Below, in pieces: positions 4,313-16,023 of a stretch of DNA of 24,311 nucleotides (position 1 is the first letter of the stretch; every line of letters begins with the position of its first letter). Below the pieces are notes generated by a model, which saw only the letters and a program-made list of their open reading frames with translations, made no database searches and was not told the origin of the DNA. The DNA is from a virus, in the IMG/VR virus record IMGVR_UViG_3300021197_001069, positions 1-24,311 of that record; one strand, written 5' to 3'. Made by a program: the position numbers and the translations under genes.

Positions 4313-4626
4313 TCGTCATCTACCCATTCTAAAATAATGCCCTGCTCGTAGCCGCCGCGGAGAATGCGTTTCGAAGTAGCTTGGGCCATAACCGCACTAT
4401 CGCGAATGCCCAGTTTGTCGCAGAGGAAGTGAAAGATCTCCATCACATCAGCTGCCTCCTCTGCGGAAGGGTCCTCTGTGAATTCTTGGATTTCTTCGTG
4501 GAGCTTTTTAAAAGCATACGAAATAATCTCGTTCTCGTCTGCTTTACGTGAGGCGAAGGTCTTGCCGGCATCGGCAATGACGCTTGGGATACGATCCCTC
4601 ACTAGTTTTTGGTAGATCTTCTTCAC
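4309..4626 (-). CDS. All-alpha NTP pyrophosphohydrolase (MazG/PRA-PH-like)
   Basis: A 105-residue nucleoside triphosphate pyrophosphohydrolase. It starts with the signature KLVRDRIPSVI (residues 7-17), followed by the metal-binding helix motif KLHEEIQEF (about 41-49) and EEAADVMEI (about 56-64), the E-x-x-E...E-x-x-D pattern of the all-alpha NTP-PPase superfamily. Such phage enzymes hydrolyse dNTPs or related nucleotides, cleaning the nucleotide pool or altering host signalling. The start is GTG, overlapping the TGA of the polymerase gene by four bases (GTGA), so it is probably translated by coupling. The exact substrate cannot be told. Confidence 0.85.
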   Translation of the reverse strand: MKKIYQKLVRDRIPSVIADAGKTFASRKADENEIISYAFKKLHEEIQEFTEDPSAEEAADVMEIFHFLCDKLGIRDSAVMAQATSKRILRGGYEQGIILEWVDDE

Positions 4627-5810
4627 AGCTTTAATTCCTTCATCGCTCCAAGGTTCTTGCCAGCGGCGACGTTAACCTTAAATCTATCATAGCGTGTCTG
4701 TGAGAAGATGTCAAGCATTTCCATAATGCGTGCTTTGTCCTCATTAGCAAGGTCGATGTATACAGCATCATGAATAAGAAACGCAACAGTGCTCTTCATC
4801 CCCTCCAAAAGTTTAAAAACCTTATAAGCTTGCTCATGTACCATATCAATTGTGGTGCTCTGAACGATGTAGTTTAGAGCGTGGTGGTCGTCCACTTTCT
4901 CTATTATTCTACCATAATCTGTCTTGATTTTGTAGCCATTCCAGTACTTATTTCGCACAAAATCTTTATTGTACATGTCCTCTAAATCCTTGTTTTTATT
5001 GGAGGAATACAGCCAAGCAAATGTCTTGACCTTGGCCTCTTCCCGAGTAATGTGGCCCCCAAACACATTCTGCACGTTCCAATCGTGAATGTCATTCTCG
5101 GGTTGCTCTTGTTCGTTAAGTGCTAGCAGCACTCGCAACTCTGCAGCATTGAAGTCTAGCTCAAGCAGCCAATCATTGTTTGGTTTAACACATCCGCGGA
5201 ACTCTTTACCCATCGTAAGAATCGGGAATGACTTTGGCATCGTTGAGAGTCGGCCAGTAATCGTGCCCCATGCGTTATAGTCACATACATGTCGTGTGGT
5301 GCGGAGAGTTCTGTGAAAATTTTGACCCTTTACAGACGATAAGAGATGCTTGATCGGACCTATGTCGATGTTTAGAGACCTAGACTGAATATCGTCCAGC
5401 ATCCTAACCAGATTAAATACCTGCTGATAGTTCTCTGGTCTCTCATACTTGTTTAGAACATGTTCAGTGACTTTATTCTTCGCATTCATATACTGATATA
5501 AGAAGTATTCTGGCAAGACATCGTAAAAACAATTCTCGTTCAAGTTTACACGAGCAGTGCTGAAGGCCCTGAGACACGATCTGAGCGTCTTCTTGATCAT
5601 TTCCCACTCATCCTTCATGTCTTCCGGGCAAACGTCTGTAATCGTCGCTCCGTGGGCGTAGATGCGGGCTATTTCGATCGGCGCCTCGCCCAGATACTCT
5701 GAGTACTCCCAAGTGCCACCCTCTGAAGGTAATTCGGTGGATGGATTGATTTGATTGTTAGCAAAATAGCCAACGCAGTCGCGCTTGGCGTCGAGAACCT
5801 GAAAAAGCAA
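4623..5810 (-). CDS. Family A DNA polymerase (polymerase domain only)
   Basis: A 395-residue template-dependent DNA polymerase of the Pol I family. Motif A is LLELDFNAAELRVLLAL with catalytic Asp219 and Glu224. Motif B is REEAKVKTFAWLYS with Arg256, Lys260, Phe264 and Tyr268 at Pol I spacing. A Gln helix LNYIVQST has Asn313 and Gln317. Motif C is FLIHDAVYID with His347 and Asp348. GRLST at 186-190 and EFRGC at 203-207 match the conserved thumb/palm segments. The 180 residues before this are too short for a Pol I 3'-5' exonuclease plus full thumb and show no exonuclease motifs, so proofreading would need another gene. The TTG start is forced: an in-frame TAG stands three codons upstream and the next Met is residue 65. 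AGGGAGG lies four bases before it. This replaces T4's family B gp43. Confidence 0.9.
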   Translation of the reverse strand: MLFQVLDAKRDCVGYFANNQINPSTELPSEGGTWEYSEYLGEAPIEIARIYAHGATITDVCPEDMKDEWEMIKKTLRSCLRAFSTARVNLNENCFYDVLPEYFLYQYMNAKNKVTEHVLNKYERPENYQQVFNLVRMLDDIQSRSLNIDIGPIKHLLSSVKGQNFHRTLRTTRHVCDYNAWGTITGRLSTMPKSFPILTMGKEFRGCVKPNNDWLLELDFNAAELRVLLALNEQEQPENDIHDWNVQNVFGGHITREEAKVKTFAWLYSSNKNKDLEDMYNKDFVRNKYWNGYKIKTDYGRIIEKVDDHHALNYIVQSTTIDMVHEQAYKVFKLLEGMKSTVAFLIHDAVYIDLANEDKARIMEMLDIFSQTRYDRFKVNVAAGKNLGAMKELKL

Positions 5811-12156: not shown

Positions 12157-14025
12157 CTACGCATTACTATACGGCGAGAATGCGCCTCTCGCTTTTTCCG
12201 AGTTGAGGGCCCTAATCGAAAAGTCCTCAAGTTGCTCATTACCGATATGAACAGCGATCTGCTGTGGGCCTTGAGTCTGGTTTTTTACGGTGTCGATCAG
12301 TTCTCTAAGAAGATCTTGCGAAATCACCTCGGAGCCCTGGCCGCCTGTAATCAAAAGCTCGCCCGGGTGGACCATGGCTTGGTCTGTGGTGATTGTGCCT
12401 CCAGTCTGGAACCCTGGTATCGCAGTTGTACTGGCCGGGGATGCAGAACCTCCGCCGCTAAATGCTGCAATTCCACCGGCACCCGCTATAGCAGCATAAG
12501 TAAGCAGTGAAGCGCCTCCGGTGAACGGTGCGGCGACAAGAGCGGCAATACCAGCAGCTGCGAGACCAACACCAACGAACCTGCCCAAAGCGCTTGATGC
12601 ACCCGCAATAAATCCAGCAAAGCTTCCAATGCCCTCAATTATGGGAACAATCAAATTGTCAATAAGAGGCTTGCCGGCGACTAACATTTGTCTAAATGCG
12701 TTGGACAACTGAGCCATTGCTGCTTGCGATTGTCTTGCAGCCTCTGCCATCTCTTCTTGATTCATTCTCTGGATTTCTAACTCTTCATTGGTGGCCCCGA
12801 GAAGCTCCTTTGTCTTTGTGGTTGATAACCCTAGAGCAGACGCAAATGCCTCAAGCTGGGCGCCCGAGACATCCTCAATTGATACTCCAGCTTGGTCAAA
12901 ACCATCGCGAAGCATCCTGATCCCCTCAATAGGATCTTCGAACGATGCGTTCAGCATGTCCATTGAATTCAGGAATGGGCCGCCGAGAATCGCATTGAGG
13001 CGGCCGACTGTTTCGCCAGCTTGATCGAATGTCTTAAACTTGTCGACAACCTCAACAAGTGTACCCAGCTCTGTGCCGAGTGCCTTGGCAGTGACAGCCA
13101 ACTCTTCAAAGGCTTTTTGGCCATCATCGCCGAAACGGACAAGGAAATCTTTGTTTGCAGCAAACTGGCCACCGAGTGTGTCTACATCAACTCCAAGGCT
13201 GCGAGCTGTCGAGGCAAGATCAATAAGCAAATCGTTGGCTTCATCTACATCCATGCCCAGAGCCTGAGTAGCAGTCTGGATGATCGCGGCTTGATTACCA
13301 AAGCTAAAGCCCAGTCTGTTCAGCTGAACGGTTGTCTCGGCAATTGCCCCTTGCTGCTGCTCTGAAAGATATGTGAAGTCTGTGAATTCATTCTTCAAAG
13401 CTCCAACAGCCTGTGTAACATCATCCAGGCTAGCGCCGATTGCGATTGTGTTAAGACCGACATTTCGTATCGTGTCGTCAAACTCTCTGCCGGCGCCGGT
13501 TGATTTCCGGAACTCGGCAGTGACCTTATCTGCCTCAAGGGCAAAATCCGTTAACTCCTGGGCAACCTTGAAGATCGCGTCTTTAAGAAGCTGGCCGCTG
13601 GCAACCGACTCCAGAGCTTCTTTGCGAAAGCTAGAAAGACTTGTGTCGCCTAGGCTGGCAAATTGAGCAAACTTCTCAAATCCTCCCGAGAGTCCAAATA
13701 GGGATCCTCTCATCGATTCGAAAAGTTGTTCACCTACTTTTTGTTGTTCTTGAAACTCTCTTTCAATCTTGAGATTGTCTTTTTTTGTTTCGTTAAGCCT
13801 CTCTAGCTCGACGCGTTGGGCTAGAAGGCCCGCGGTGTATGCCTCGATATCTTGAGTGGCTTCTGCTATCGCTCGAGCATCACCCAGCTCCTGGGCAGCT
13901 TTAAGGCGCTCACGGGAGTTTCTTAATTCTTTTTTCTCTGCTTTTTCTCTTTCTTTAAGAAACTCAATCTCAATCTGTATTAGACGATTTCGTTCTTTAA
14001 GTTGTTCGATAGTGGGATCTGCCAT
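12157..14025 (-). CDS. Tail tape measure protein
   Basis: A 622-residue tape measure protein, the ruler and core of the tail tube. It starts with a long charged coiled coil (residues 1-95, ERNRLIQIEIEFLKEREKAE), continues as mostly helical repeats rich in Leu, Ala and Thr, and has a hydrophobic, Gly/Ala-rich region at about 455-525 that could insert in the host membrane. It ends with a motif common in tape measures, GFQTGGTITTDQAMVHPGE (about 538-555). At about 0.15 nm per residue the tail would be near 90-95 nm, similar to T4 (gp29, about 590 residues). The ATG follows a strong AGGAGG. It is downstream of the gp26-like frame-change site, the usual place for a tape measure after tail chaperones. 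Confidence 0.88.
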   Translation of the reverse strand: MADPTIEQLKERNRLIQIEIEFLKEREKAEKKELRNSRERLKAAQELGDARAIAEATQDIEAYTAGLLAQRVELERLNETKKDNLKIEREFQEQQKVGEQLFESMRGSLFGLSGGFEKFAQFASLGDTSLSSFRKEALESVASGQLLKDAIFKVAQELTDFALEADKVTAEFRKSTGAGREFDDTIRNVGLNTIAIGASLDDVTQAVGALKNEFTDFTYLSEQQQGAIAETTVQLNRLGFSFGNQAAIIQTATQALGMDVDEANDLLIDLASTARSLGVDVDTLGGQFAANKDFLVRFGDDGQKAFEELAVTAKALGTELGTLVEVVDKFKTFDQAGETVGRLNAILGGPFLNSMDMLNASFEDPIEGIRMLRDGFDQAGVSIEDVSGAQLEAFASALGLSTTKTKELLGATNEELEIQRMNQEEMAEAARQSQAAMAQLSNAFRQMLVAGKPLIDNLIVPIIEGIGSFAGFIAGASSALGRFVGVGLAAAGIAALVAAPFTGGASLLTYAAIAGAGGIAAFSGGGSASPASTTAIPGFQTGGTITTDQAMVHPGELLITGGQGSEVISQDLLRELIDTVKNQTQGPQQIAVHIGNEQLEDFSIRALNSEKARGAFSPYSNA

Positions 14026-14036
14026 TTATAAACCTC

Positions 14037-14372
14037 CTAGTTTTTAAATGGCCACCTTAAGCCTGTTTCTTTCTCAAAACCTTCAACTGCTCTATTCAGA
14101 GAATACTTTGATTTCATGGTCTTTGGATTATCAAGACCGTTTTTGATATACGAATCCATGTAGCGCTTTTCTCTACCGAGCGCTTTCATAAATGATTCAA
14201 CCTGTGATGTGGACCCCATAAGGCGCAAGGGGATATCGATTCCGCCAAAATACAAATCAAGCATCATTTTACGAACTTGATTAGCAAACTTACTTGCTAC
14301 TGCCGATCTCTCGTTTAATGGCTTTCCGACGTTATTTAAATCTACTATGTCTTCTTCTACAATATCGTTCAT
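14037..14372 (-). CDS. Small tail-region protein of unknown function
   Basis: A 111-residue, probably helical protein with an acidic N-terminus and a basic middle (REKRYMDSYIKNG, MKSKYSLNRAVEGFEKETG). No family recognised. It lies between the gp26-like pair and the tape measure, 11 bases before the latter, where tail assembly chaperones are often found, so an assembly role is a reasonable guess. A copy of the candidate late-promoter motif ends 22 bases before its ATG, so it may begin a transcript that includes the tape measure. Confidence 0.75.
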   Translation of the reverse strand: MNDIVEEDIVDLNNVGKPLNERSAVASKFANQVRKMMLDLYFGGIDIPLRLMGSTSQVESFMKALGREKRYMDSYIKNGLDNPKTMKSKYSLNRAVEGFEKETGLRWPFKN

Positions 14373-14420: not shown

Positions 14421-14618
14421 TTATCTTGTTCTTGCTTTCTCCATTCTCTCTTTCTGATCTTTAAACTCTTTGGATAACCTTTCGAGGAACCACCGGCGCA
14501 GAGCAATGGGTAGATTATATAGCTCAGTGAACGACCACCCGCCGTGGTGCTTAAGTAAAAAGAACTCTTCGTATACTGTTTTTTGGTACTCAGGTGTTAG
14601 GCCAAAAAAACGCTGCCG
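14421..14618 (-). CDS. Small tail/baseplate assembly protein made only by frame change from gp26
   Basis: An open frame with no ATG, GTG or TTG near its beginning; a TGA stop lies at 14619-14621. From the run of seven T (coding strand) it reads FFGLTPEYQKTVYEEFFLLK, then HHGGWSFTELYNLPIALRRW, ending ERMEKARTR. Sixty residues follow the T run. The middle part resembles small myophage proteins of the gp51 or P2 GpE' type, where a Trp/His patch is followed by a short helix. It overlaps the end of the gp26-like gene by 29 bases in the +1 frame. Expression would need +1 or -2 slippage on the T run, giving a gp26 fusion, or else one T in this sequence is an error. Real coding is likely from its composition; the mechanism is open. 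Confidence 0.66.
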   Translation of the reverse strand, partial: RQRFFGLTPEYQKTVYEEFFLLKHHGGWSFTELYNLPIALRRWFLERLSKEFKDQKERMEKARTR

Positions 14619-15426
14619 TCATGGGCATGCCTACCTTTCCATCTTCGTGGCAGAGGGGACAGTTTATGTCAAAACGAAGGTCTAAGTCGGGCTTAACGGT
14701 ATCGTAAATCTCGCGGAGGTGCTTCACATCCTGTAATGGCATAGACTCGATAAATTTATGAAGGAGCGCTGGGTTTGTATGCTCATTAGCCTGAACGATA
14801 ATGGACTTTAACAGCCCCGTAATTGGGGTGACTGTGCCCTCAGCTGGAGCTATAAGTTTTGCAATCCGCTTTTCATCTCGTGATGACAGGAGTCGAACGT
14901 AGATATTAACCTTTGATATTGGCAACTCAAAACTGAATACACCATCACCTTCAGCTGTAACTCCTTCAGCAACTTCTCTATTCTGAGACTTTAGCTCTGT
15001 AAGGTCAAAAGTGTACGGTGACTCTTTGCTGCATGATGGACACTTTGCAGTTACTTCGTAGTGCGGCCCAAAGCCTGTTATCCTTGTTGCAATAAGAATA
15101 GCTGTCTTGTCACCCAATAATAGATCTCCTACTTTGATGTTAGGGTCGATAATAACCGAATCCAACAAACGATCTATCGCAAGCTCGTTCTTCAAAAGAG
15201 CCTCGGATGTTAGGATATCTTCTTCTTTGGCTGTCATGTGTTTAATTTCAACGACAGTCTGGCCATGAAGGGGGTGTTCTTTTGGGTAATGGAGACCCTT
15301 GCTTGGCAACTCAACAAATTCTGTTGGGTTTACGAACGCAAATAGGTCTGAAGCTTCTGTGGTAGGGGGAGTTGGCGCGTCTGGTTGCGGTGCGCCTAAC
15401 CGCTCTAAATTATTTCTACGTGACAA
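14590..15426 (-). CDS. gp26-like baseplate hub/assembly protein
   Basis: A 278-residue protein of the T4 gp26 (T4_baseplate) family. Signature segments are FVNPTEFVELPSKGLHYP (about 31-48), VEIKHMTAKEEDILTSEALL (59-78), the AIDRLLDS helix and GDKTAILIATRITGFG (105-120). Two Cys-x-x-Cys pairs, CPSC at 129-132 and CPLC at 256-259, may bind zinc. It ends GMPMTAAFFWPNT, where the FFWP ending is family-typical. It is longer than T4 gp26 (208) through a Pro-rich N-terminus. The last codons contain seven T in a row where the following small frame can be entered. It lies directly after the tail tube gene and before the tape measure, the slot of a tail chaperone in other phages. Confidence 0.8.
   Translation of the reverse strand: MSRRNNLERLGAPQPDAPTPPTTEASDLFAFVNPTEFVELPSKGLHYPKEHPLHGQTVVEIKHMTAKEEDILTSEALLKNELAIDRLLDSVIIDPNIKVGDLLLGDKTAILIATRITGFGPHYEVTAKCPSCSKESPYTFDLTELKSQNREVAEGVTAEGDGVFSFELPISKVNIYVRLLSSRDEKRIAKLIAPAEGTVTPITGLLKSIIVQANEHTNPALLHKFIESMPLQDVKHLREIYDTVKPDLDLRFDINCPLCHEDGKVGMPMTAAFFWPNT
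14604..14610 (-). other. T7 slippery run / frame-change site
   Basis: Seven T on the coding strand (GCG TTT TTT TGG in the gp26 frame). Dropping one T, or reading two again, continues into 60 more codons of protein-like sequence. Reading straight through gives TGGCCTAACACC and stops at TGA. Confidence 0.6.
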
Positions 15427-15441
15427 AGGTCACCTCTTTTC

Positions 15442-16023
15442 TTATCCGTTCAATTCTGTTACAGCAGCTACTGCTGGGCCGGAGTCATACTCTGCCCAAT
15501 CATACCGGAATTGGATCTCGATATTAAGCAAATCATCAGTTTCATAAGTGAGATCGCCGAATGTAGCATTAGTAATGAAGGCATTCTGGAGTGTCCAAGT
15601 ACCGATAAGTCCGCCCTGACCATTCAACTCTTCGAAGATAACATTACCAAGAGCATCGACTGCGCCCTGCTTGTTAACTGTGCCTGGGGCCTGGGCTGGG
15701 TTGAAGAAGACATTCTCCTGTACGTCAGGCTTCAGATAACCCGACTTTGTGAGGGCATCATAAAGAATCTGGTTACCATCTGGGTTGATGGCGTTAACGA
15801 TGGTGGCTGAAACCGTATTCCATGTAACAGAGCCTGGGTAGTAGTAGGTGTTACCCAAAAACTTGTGAGGCGTATCAGAGACTGTGTACGATGGCTTTGT
15901 AATAGCCTTTGCGAGGTATTGCTCATACCTGAAAGCCTGATTAAGATCAGTTAAGTTTGGTAGTGTGAGCAGAAAGCGATGTGCTCTTCTAGGCTCTGAT
16001 AGTGCTGATGTCCAAAATGGCAT
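15442..16023 (-). CDS. gp19: Tail tube protein (gp19-like)
   Basis: A 193-residue tail tube subunit. It starts like other myophage tube proteins, with RAHRFLLTLPNLTDL (about 13-27), and continues with KAITKPSYTVSDTPHKFLGN (about 39-58), which forms the ring-packing loop in this family, then YYYPGSVTWNTVSATIVNAI. It ends with a strand pair DDLLNIEIQFRYDWAEYD. Length is near T4 gp19 (163) with a C-terminal Ala/Val-rich extension. Next to the sheath gene, as in T4, with a hairpin between them. AGGAGA precedes the ATG. Confidence 0.9.
   Translation of the reverse strand: MPFWTSALSEPRRAHRFLLTLPNLTDLNQAFRYEQYLAKAITKPSYTVSDTPHKFLGNTYYYPGSVTWNTVSATIVNAINPDGNQILYDALTKSGYLKPDVQENVFFNPAQAPGTVNKQGAVDALGNVIFEELNGQGGLIGTWTLQNAFITNATFGDLTYETDDLLNIEIQFRYDWAEYDSGPAVAAVTELNG

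Follow-up and report, generated by a model that had tools for sequence, protein, structure and literature searches.

The window analysed here is the whole 24,311-nucleotide stretch of virus record IMGVR_UViG_3300021197_001069, from a marine phage. The structural genes of this 24.3-kb record are located on the minus strand, and those around the junction described below follow each other in the order tail tube, chaperone, start-less +1 frame (referred to here as the T frame), 111-aa ORF and tape measure:

15442-16023, minus strand: tail tube protein, immediately upstream of the gp26-like gene (phrog_4542, 5e-17)
14590-15426, minus strand: gp26-like gene, putative short tail assembly chaperone, TAC-N (PF12322 in Pfam, 4.6e-17; phrog_150 in PHROG, 1.6e-18; AlphaFold model)
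14619-14621, minus strand: TGA stop of the +1 frame, directly upstream of the site (reading frame)
14599-14610, minus strand: candidate frameshift site TTT TTT TGG CCT (seven T at 14610-14604; pattern TTY-YTN-NNN-CCT kept in 181 loci)
14590-14592, minus strand: 0-frame TGA stop closing the short product, 4 codons past TGG (reading frame)
14421-14603, minus strand: start-less +1 frame, DUF6760-like C-terminal domain of the putative long chaperone, TAC-NC (PF20546, coding pattern, model)
14037-14372, minus strand: 111-aa ORF, downstream of the T frame and upstream of the tape measure gene (Pfam and PHROG, no match)
12157-14025, minus strand: tape measure protein, downstream (phrog_167, 5.7e-6)

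A gp26-like gene and the frame at its 3' end

The gp26-like ORF (15426-14590) starts with TTG, codes for 278 aa and ends AAFFWPNT: the 3' end of the gene reads GCG TTT TTT TGG CCT AAC ACC TGA. The protein scored 62.9 bits against PF12322 (T4_baseplate, gp26/gp51), over the curated cut-off of 24.5. An open +1 frame of 65 codons extends from 14618 to 14424 (translation RQRFFGLTPEYQKTVYEEFFLLKHHGGWSFTELYNLPIALRRWFLERL...), with its stop at 14423-14421. Past the T run it comprises 60 codons, GLTPEYQ...KARTR, plus the stop; the first of these codons is GGC at 14603, and no ATG, GTG or TTG occurs in the +1 frame of the window ahead of the conserved core. Entry to the +1 frame before 14621-14619 is excluded by the stop codon at that position.

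A comparable gene order was found in Flavobacterium phage immuto, Microcystis phage Mel-JY01 and Thornevirus SP-15. In the window, a 395-aa ORF with a TTG start (4623-5810, minus strand) adjoins the tail gene block and matched a DNA polymerase family in PHROG (phrog_17, 3e-14).

Conservation of the junction among relatives

Relatives were gathered by scans of IMG/VR, of MAGs (mostly Flavobacteriales) and of isolated phages with the gp26-like protein and its distant relatives. The junction was readable in 191 loci, the window included, reaching down to less than 30% protein identity; a representative set of 83 sequences, all below 85% identity, was used for the analysis of the site. The +1 frame was open for at least 50 codons over the gp26 stop in 185 of the 191 loci, and the +1 layout together with the site TTY-YTN-NNN-CCT was common to 181. 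The initial annotation had described a gp26-like frame ending AAFFWPNT and a start-less +1 frame across seven T, which the coordinates and these 181 loci confirm; it had also proposed an alignment of relatives for conservation of the T run and of both frames, and this showed that the two frames are kept and that seven T are not essential.

Substitutions in the T frame at codon positions 1, 2 and 3 stood at 0.33, 0.21 and 0.54, a pattern indicating that the T frame evolves as a translated frame. No ATG, GTG or TTG was present in the first 13 codons of 64 of 79 T frames, the start codons of the other 15 were scattered, and a consistent start codon for the small frame was absent in all 181 loci with the +1 layout.

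The layout was also found in isolated phages, with the site TTT CTT TGG CCT in immuto and TTT TTT TGG CCT in Mel-JY01. The +1 layout is shared by Listeria phage LIS04, SP-15 and Streptococcus phage SagM-GXN1, whose site differs and consists of TTT TTT or TTC TTT followed by xCC CGA TTY. In the records of these three phages the chaperone extension is unannotated or annotated just in part.

Only two close relatives, L193 and L198, both about 60% identical to the gp26-like protein of immuto, had a broken site (TTC TTG TAT CCT in L193, TTC CTT TGG CCA in L198). In both, a gene of its own with an ATG start encodes the T domain, preceded by additional residues at the N terminus. Relatives with an ordinary start codon for the small protein had been regarded in the initial annotation as evidence against a frameshift. 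Such relatives do exist, but their small gene lies in another frame and their site is lost, and the loss of the site together with the gain of an ATG start supports the frameshift proposed for the remaining loci. Since L193 and L198 are mutual nearest neighbours on the tree, they may represent one loss rather than two. A separate small gene was also found in the jumbo phages LR756511, XacN1 and Atu_ph07.

The candidate shift site and the probable direction of slippage

The 83 representatives included 59 sites of the type TTT TTT TGG, 15 TTT CTT TGG, 5 TTC TTT TGG and 4 others, with CCT as the next codon in all of them. The longest T run was of seven in 59, of eight in one and of three or four in 23. 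The second codon of the site showed a strict codon choice: where it codes for Phe it was TTT in 65 of 65, against a background of 78% (p about 1e-7, with sequences treated as independent), and where it codes for Leu it was CTT or CTA in 18 of 18, although Leu is most often encoded by TTA (p about 4e-8, again with sequences treated as independent). The site types changed about ten times on the tree of the gp26-like protein, the lost form being counted as a type.

The limits of the site are set by stop codons. In 84 of the 181 loci a +1-frame stop precedes the site by 2-4 codons, the distance being 2 codons in 13 loci. The 0-frame stop followed 5-8 codons past the first F codon in 180 of the 181 loci and 12 codons past it in one, the distance being 5 in L062 and L083. 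The 13 close upstream stops and the early stops of L062 and L083 place the shift within NNN TTY YTN TGG CCT NNN. The codon after the proposed slip codon is TGG, a sense codon and not a stop. An SD-like 4-mer, as expected of a Shine-Dalgarno-like stimulator, was present upstream in just 7 of the 83 representatives, and no downstream RNA structure was detected (mean z about 0).

These comparisons show, at the level of sequence, a conserved layout, a coding +1 frame and a bounded site, and the gp26-like gene very probably yields a short (TAC-N) and a long (TAC-NC) chaperone through a +1 programmed frameshift. The programmed frameshift suggested by the initial annotation, joining a gp26-family chaperone to a start-less domain before the tape measure gene, is thereby supported by comparative evidence. 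Slippage itself, its direction, its efficiency, the tRNA involved and the roles of the two forms are inferred.

In the proposed mechanism, the majority of ribosomes would read TTT TTT TGG CCT AAC ACC TGA and produce TAC-N. A minority would slip one base forward with tRNA-Phe (tRNA-Leu in the CTT relatives) on the codon just before TGG; the slipped tRNA would re-pair one base on and GGC CTA ACA CCT... would be read, adding the 60-residue helical DUF6760-like domain of TAC-NC. If the system works like lambda G/GT, the tape measure protein would be coated by many copies of the short form and a few of the long one, tail tube subunits would be recruited by the TAC-NC extension, and both forms would leave before completion of the tail.

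In each of the 83 representatives, one of the two codons allows P-site re-pairing at +1. The same frame would be reached, with one additional Phe, if the ribosome moved back two bases on the T run; on TTT TTT TGG such -2 re-pairing of tRNA-Phe is possible, and a -2 shift is in use in phage Mu (PMC5009743). At the five TTC TTT TGG sites, however, -2 pairing has a middle-base mismatch, whereas +1 pairs at all three positions, and at two CTA sites -2 pairing is worse than +1 pairing on the preceding codon. The +1 direction is favoured because TTC TTT TGG sites re-pair badly at -2, and a -2 shift is considered unlikely. The small frame could also be a separate gene, translated by reinitiation or from a non-standard start codon, as the ATG-started gene of two relatives and of some jumbo phages would suggest; in addition, codon 2 of the T frame is CTG in 51 of 79 sequences. 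This CTG is replaced by CTA or CTC in the other 28, no start position is conserved, SD-like sequences are rare before the site, and a separate start would not need a shift site, yet the site is conserved. Independent translation of the small frame is considered unlikely as well.

Two further explanations depend on the T run itself. RNA polymerase slippage on seven T would give mixed transcripts, and with them a fusion made without ribosomal frameshifting. Seven T in a row are indeed found in 59 of the 83 representatives, but the 23 whose longest run is of three or four T have the same layout. Runs of this length are too short for ordinary transcriptional slippage, so that slippage of the polymerase on a long T run is no general explanation and has very little probability. 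Of the slip on seven T, +1 or -2, put forward in the initial annotation, the +1 direction is the one favoured, and a run of seven T is not essential. The other possibility raised there was a homopolymer sequencing error of one T splitting a single gene, which a run of seven T could invite. The same junction recurs in 181 loci, drawn from isolated phages, MAGs and numerous assemblies, some of them without a long T run, and the 0-frame stop is kept; this conservation among relatives excludes an error for practical purposes, and the explanation was rejected.

Predicted fold, putative extension domain and relation to known systems

The two halves of the fusion were modelled apart. Comparison of the gp26-like AlphaFold model with 994 chains gave 3FGX, 3KLU and 2OB9 (HK97 gp13) as the best three (Z 6.1, 5.3 and 5.2 over 84-90 residues; next 4.0), values which, being below 8, may reflect a common arrangement alone and are no proof of common descent. 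All three, named phage tail assembly chaperones (PMC9603447), match the N-terminal domain of the model, and this structural comparison is favourable to a tail assembly chaperone fold for the N-terminal part of the predicted protein. When the gp26-like model was compared with the PDB by Foldseek, no match reached E ≤0.001; the highest probability shown, 0.23, was that of the HK97 chaperone. PDB sequence searches with the gp26-like and T-domain profiles gave nothing meaningful.

The T domain was modelled as three helices (pLDDT 82), with no match at E ≤0.001 among BFVD structures. The T frame of the window matched PF20546 (DUF6760) at E 5e-4 to 6e-4 (20.2-20.4 bits, under the Pfam cut-off of 27), and a match at E up to 0.01 was obtained for 9 of 35 relatives, the best at 5e-5. 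When the T-domain profile was compared with bacterial DUF6760 members by hhalign, the value was about 1e-5. The gp26-like protein and DUF6760 are joined in one frame of 255 aa in two Bacteroidota loci, L101 and L102, which carry tube-like and sheath-like genes and resemble bacterial injection systems.

A further injection-system-like bacterial locus, L100 (G076 contig C54, reverse complement 1440-1520), has gp26-like and DUF6760 frames that overlap in the -1 direction, with a run of five G and no start codon near the junction. Judging from these frames, a -1 frameshift in a contractile injection system is possible. A wider DUF6760 search within one bacterial order gave nothing beyond the same three loci. 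A likely role can be suggested for DUF6760, as a tail-chaperone extension domain in phages and in bacterial injection systems, and many missed C-terminal domains become annotatable. The +1 site is simple and could be tested by reporter.

Frameshifted tail chaperones are classic. Like the locus in the window, lambda G/GT and P2 E/E' are located between the tube and tape measure genes and have a short and a frameshift-extended form; the lambda order of tube, chaperone, T frame and tape measure is that of the window. Both of these systems shift -1, whereas the open frame of the window is +1, and no sequence match was found between the T domain and lambda T. A +1 frameshift occurs in prfB (RF2) at CUU UGA, and the CTT_TGG variant of the site described here could slip from CTT to TTT in the same way. 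It differs from prfB in its A-site codon, TGG instead of a stop, and in lacking the upstream Shine-Dalgarno-like stimulator, an SD-like 4-mer being present in just 7 of 83 representatives.

The chaperone of phage Adele (Vandenendeviridae/Andersonviridae) has an invariant GTTTTT, a -1 site (PMC12846349). As in the window, TAC-N of Adele ends in a poly-T site and its extension is unannotated; the Adele shift is reported as -1, whereas in the family described here the open frame is +1 and a long T run is not required. The same paper notes, citing Vladimirov et al. 2022, that the TAC-N genes of T4-like phages are known to have poly-T signals.

T4 gp26 and T4 gp51, listed as hub assembly chaperones (PMC3004832), both match PF12322, the same model as the window protein. 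T4 has two paralogous genes where the window has one gene plus a start-less +1 frame. About 48 residues of gp51 extend past the end of gp26, in register with the T domain, the sequence match of this gp51 tail to the T domain being weak (E 0.016-0.064). The T frame of one relative matched phrog_634 at 5e-4, and phrog_634 also matches the C-terminal part of gp51. A link by profile alone was rejected: equally high scores were reached by 20 of 200 column-shuffled controls, and the link between the T domain and the gp51 tail therefore rests on position and paralogy. In a passage of the PRFect paper (PMC10885494) citing Vladimirov et al. 2022, some T4-like phages are described as having two genes, one short and one long and fused, in place of a frameshift; we read this pair, as reported there, as gp26 and gp51. 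With gp51 as a gp26 paralogue carrying a C-terminal extension, and with the fused long gene of that passage, a gp26 fusion is not unusual, contrary to the initial annotation.

The 2016 review (PMC5009743) describes G-T frameshifting as a conserved feature of long-tailed phages, with T4 as the exception. Against this exception, many phages, both environmental and isolated, appear to rely on a frame change, in the +1 direction, for chaperones of the T4 family. On balance we favour the wider proposal that widespread +1 sites, YUU_UGG_CCU, act at a sense codon with neither a stop, a Shine-Dalgarno stimulator nor an RNA structure and supply long gp26/gp51-type chaperones; within this one family, T4 with its two genes and the bacterial injection systems with their in-frame fusions would represent other solutions. 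As far as the literature consulted goes, the novel points are the +1 direction, the site family and how widely it occurs, the disappearance of the site from L193 and L198 and the link to DUF6760, some of which Vladimirov et al. 2022 may have published already. The proposed gp26-like +1 system is a variant of the known frameshifted or two-gene tail chaperones, the two-gene version of T4-like phages having already been described, as far as the PRFect passage goes (PMC10885494).
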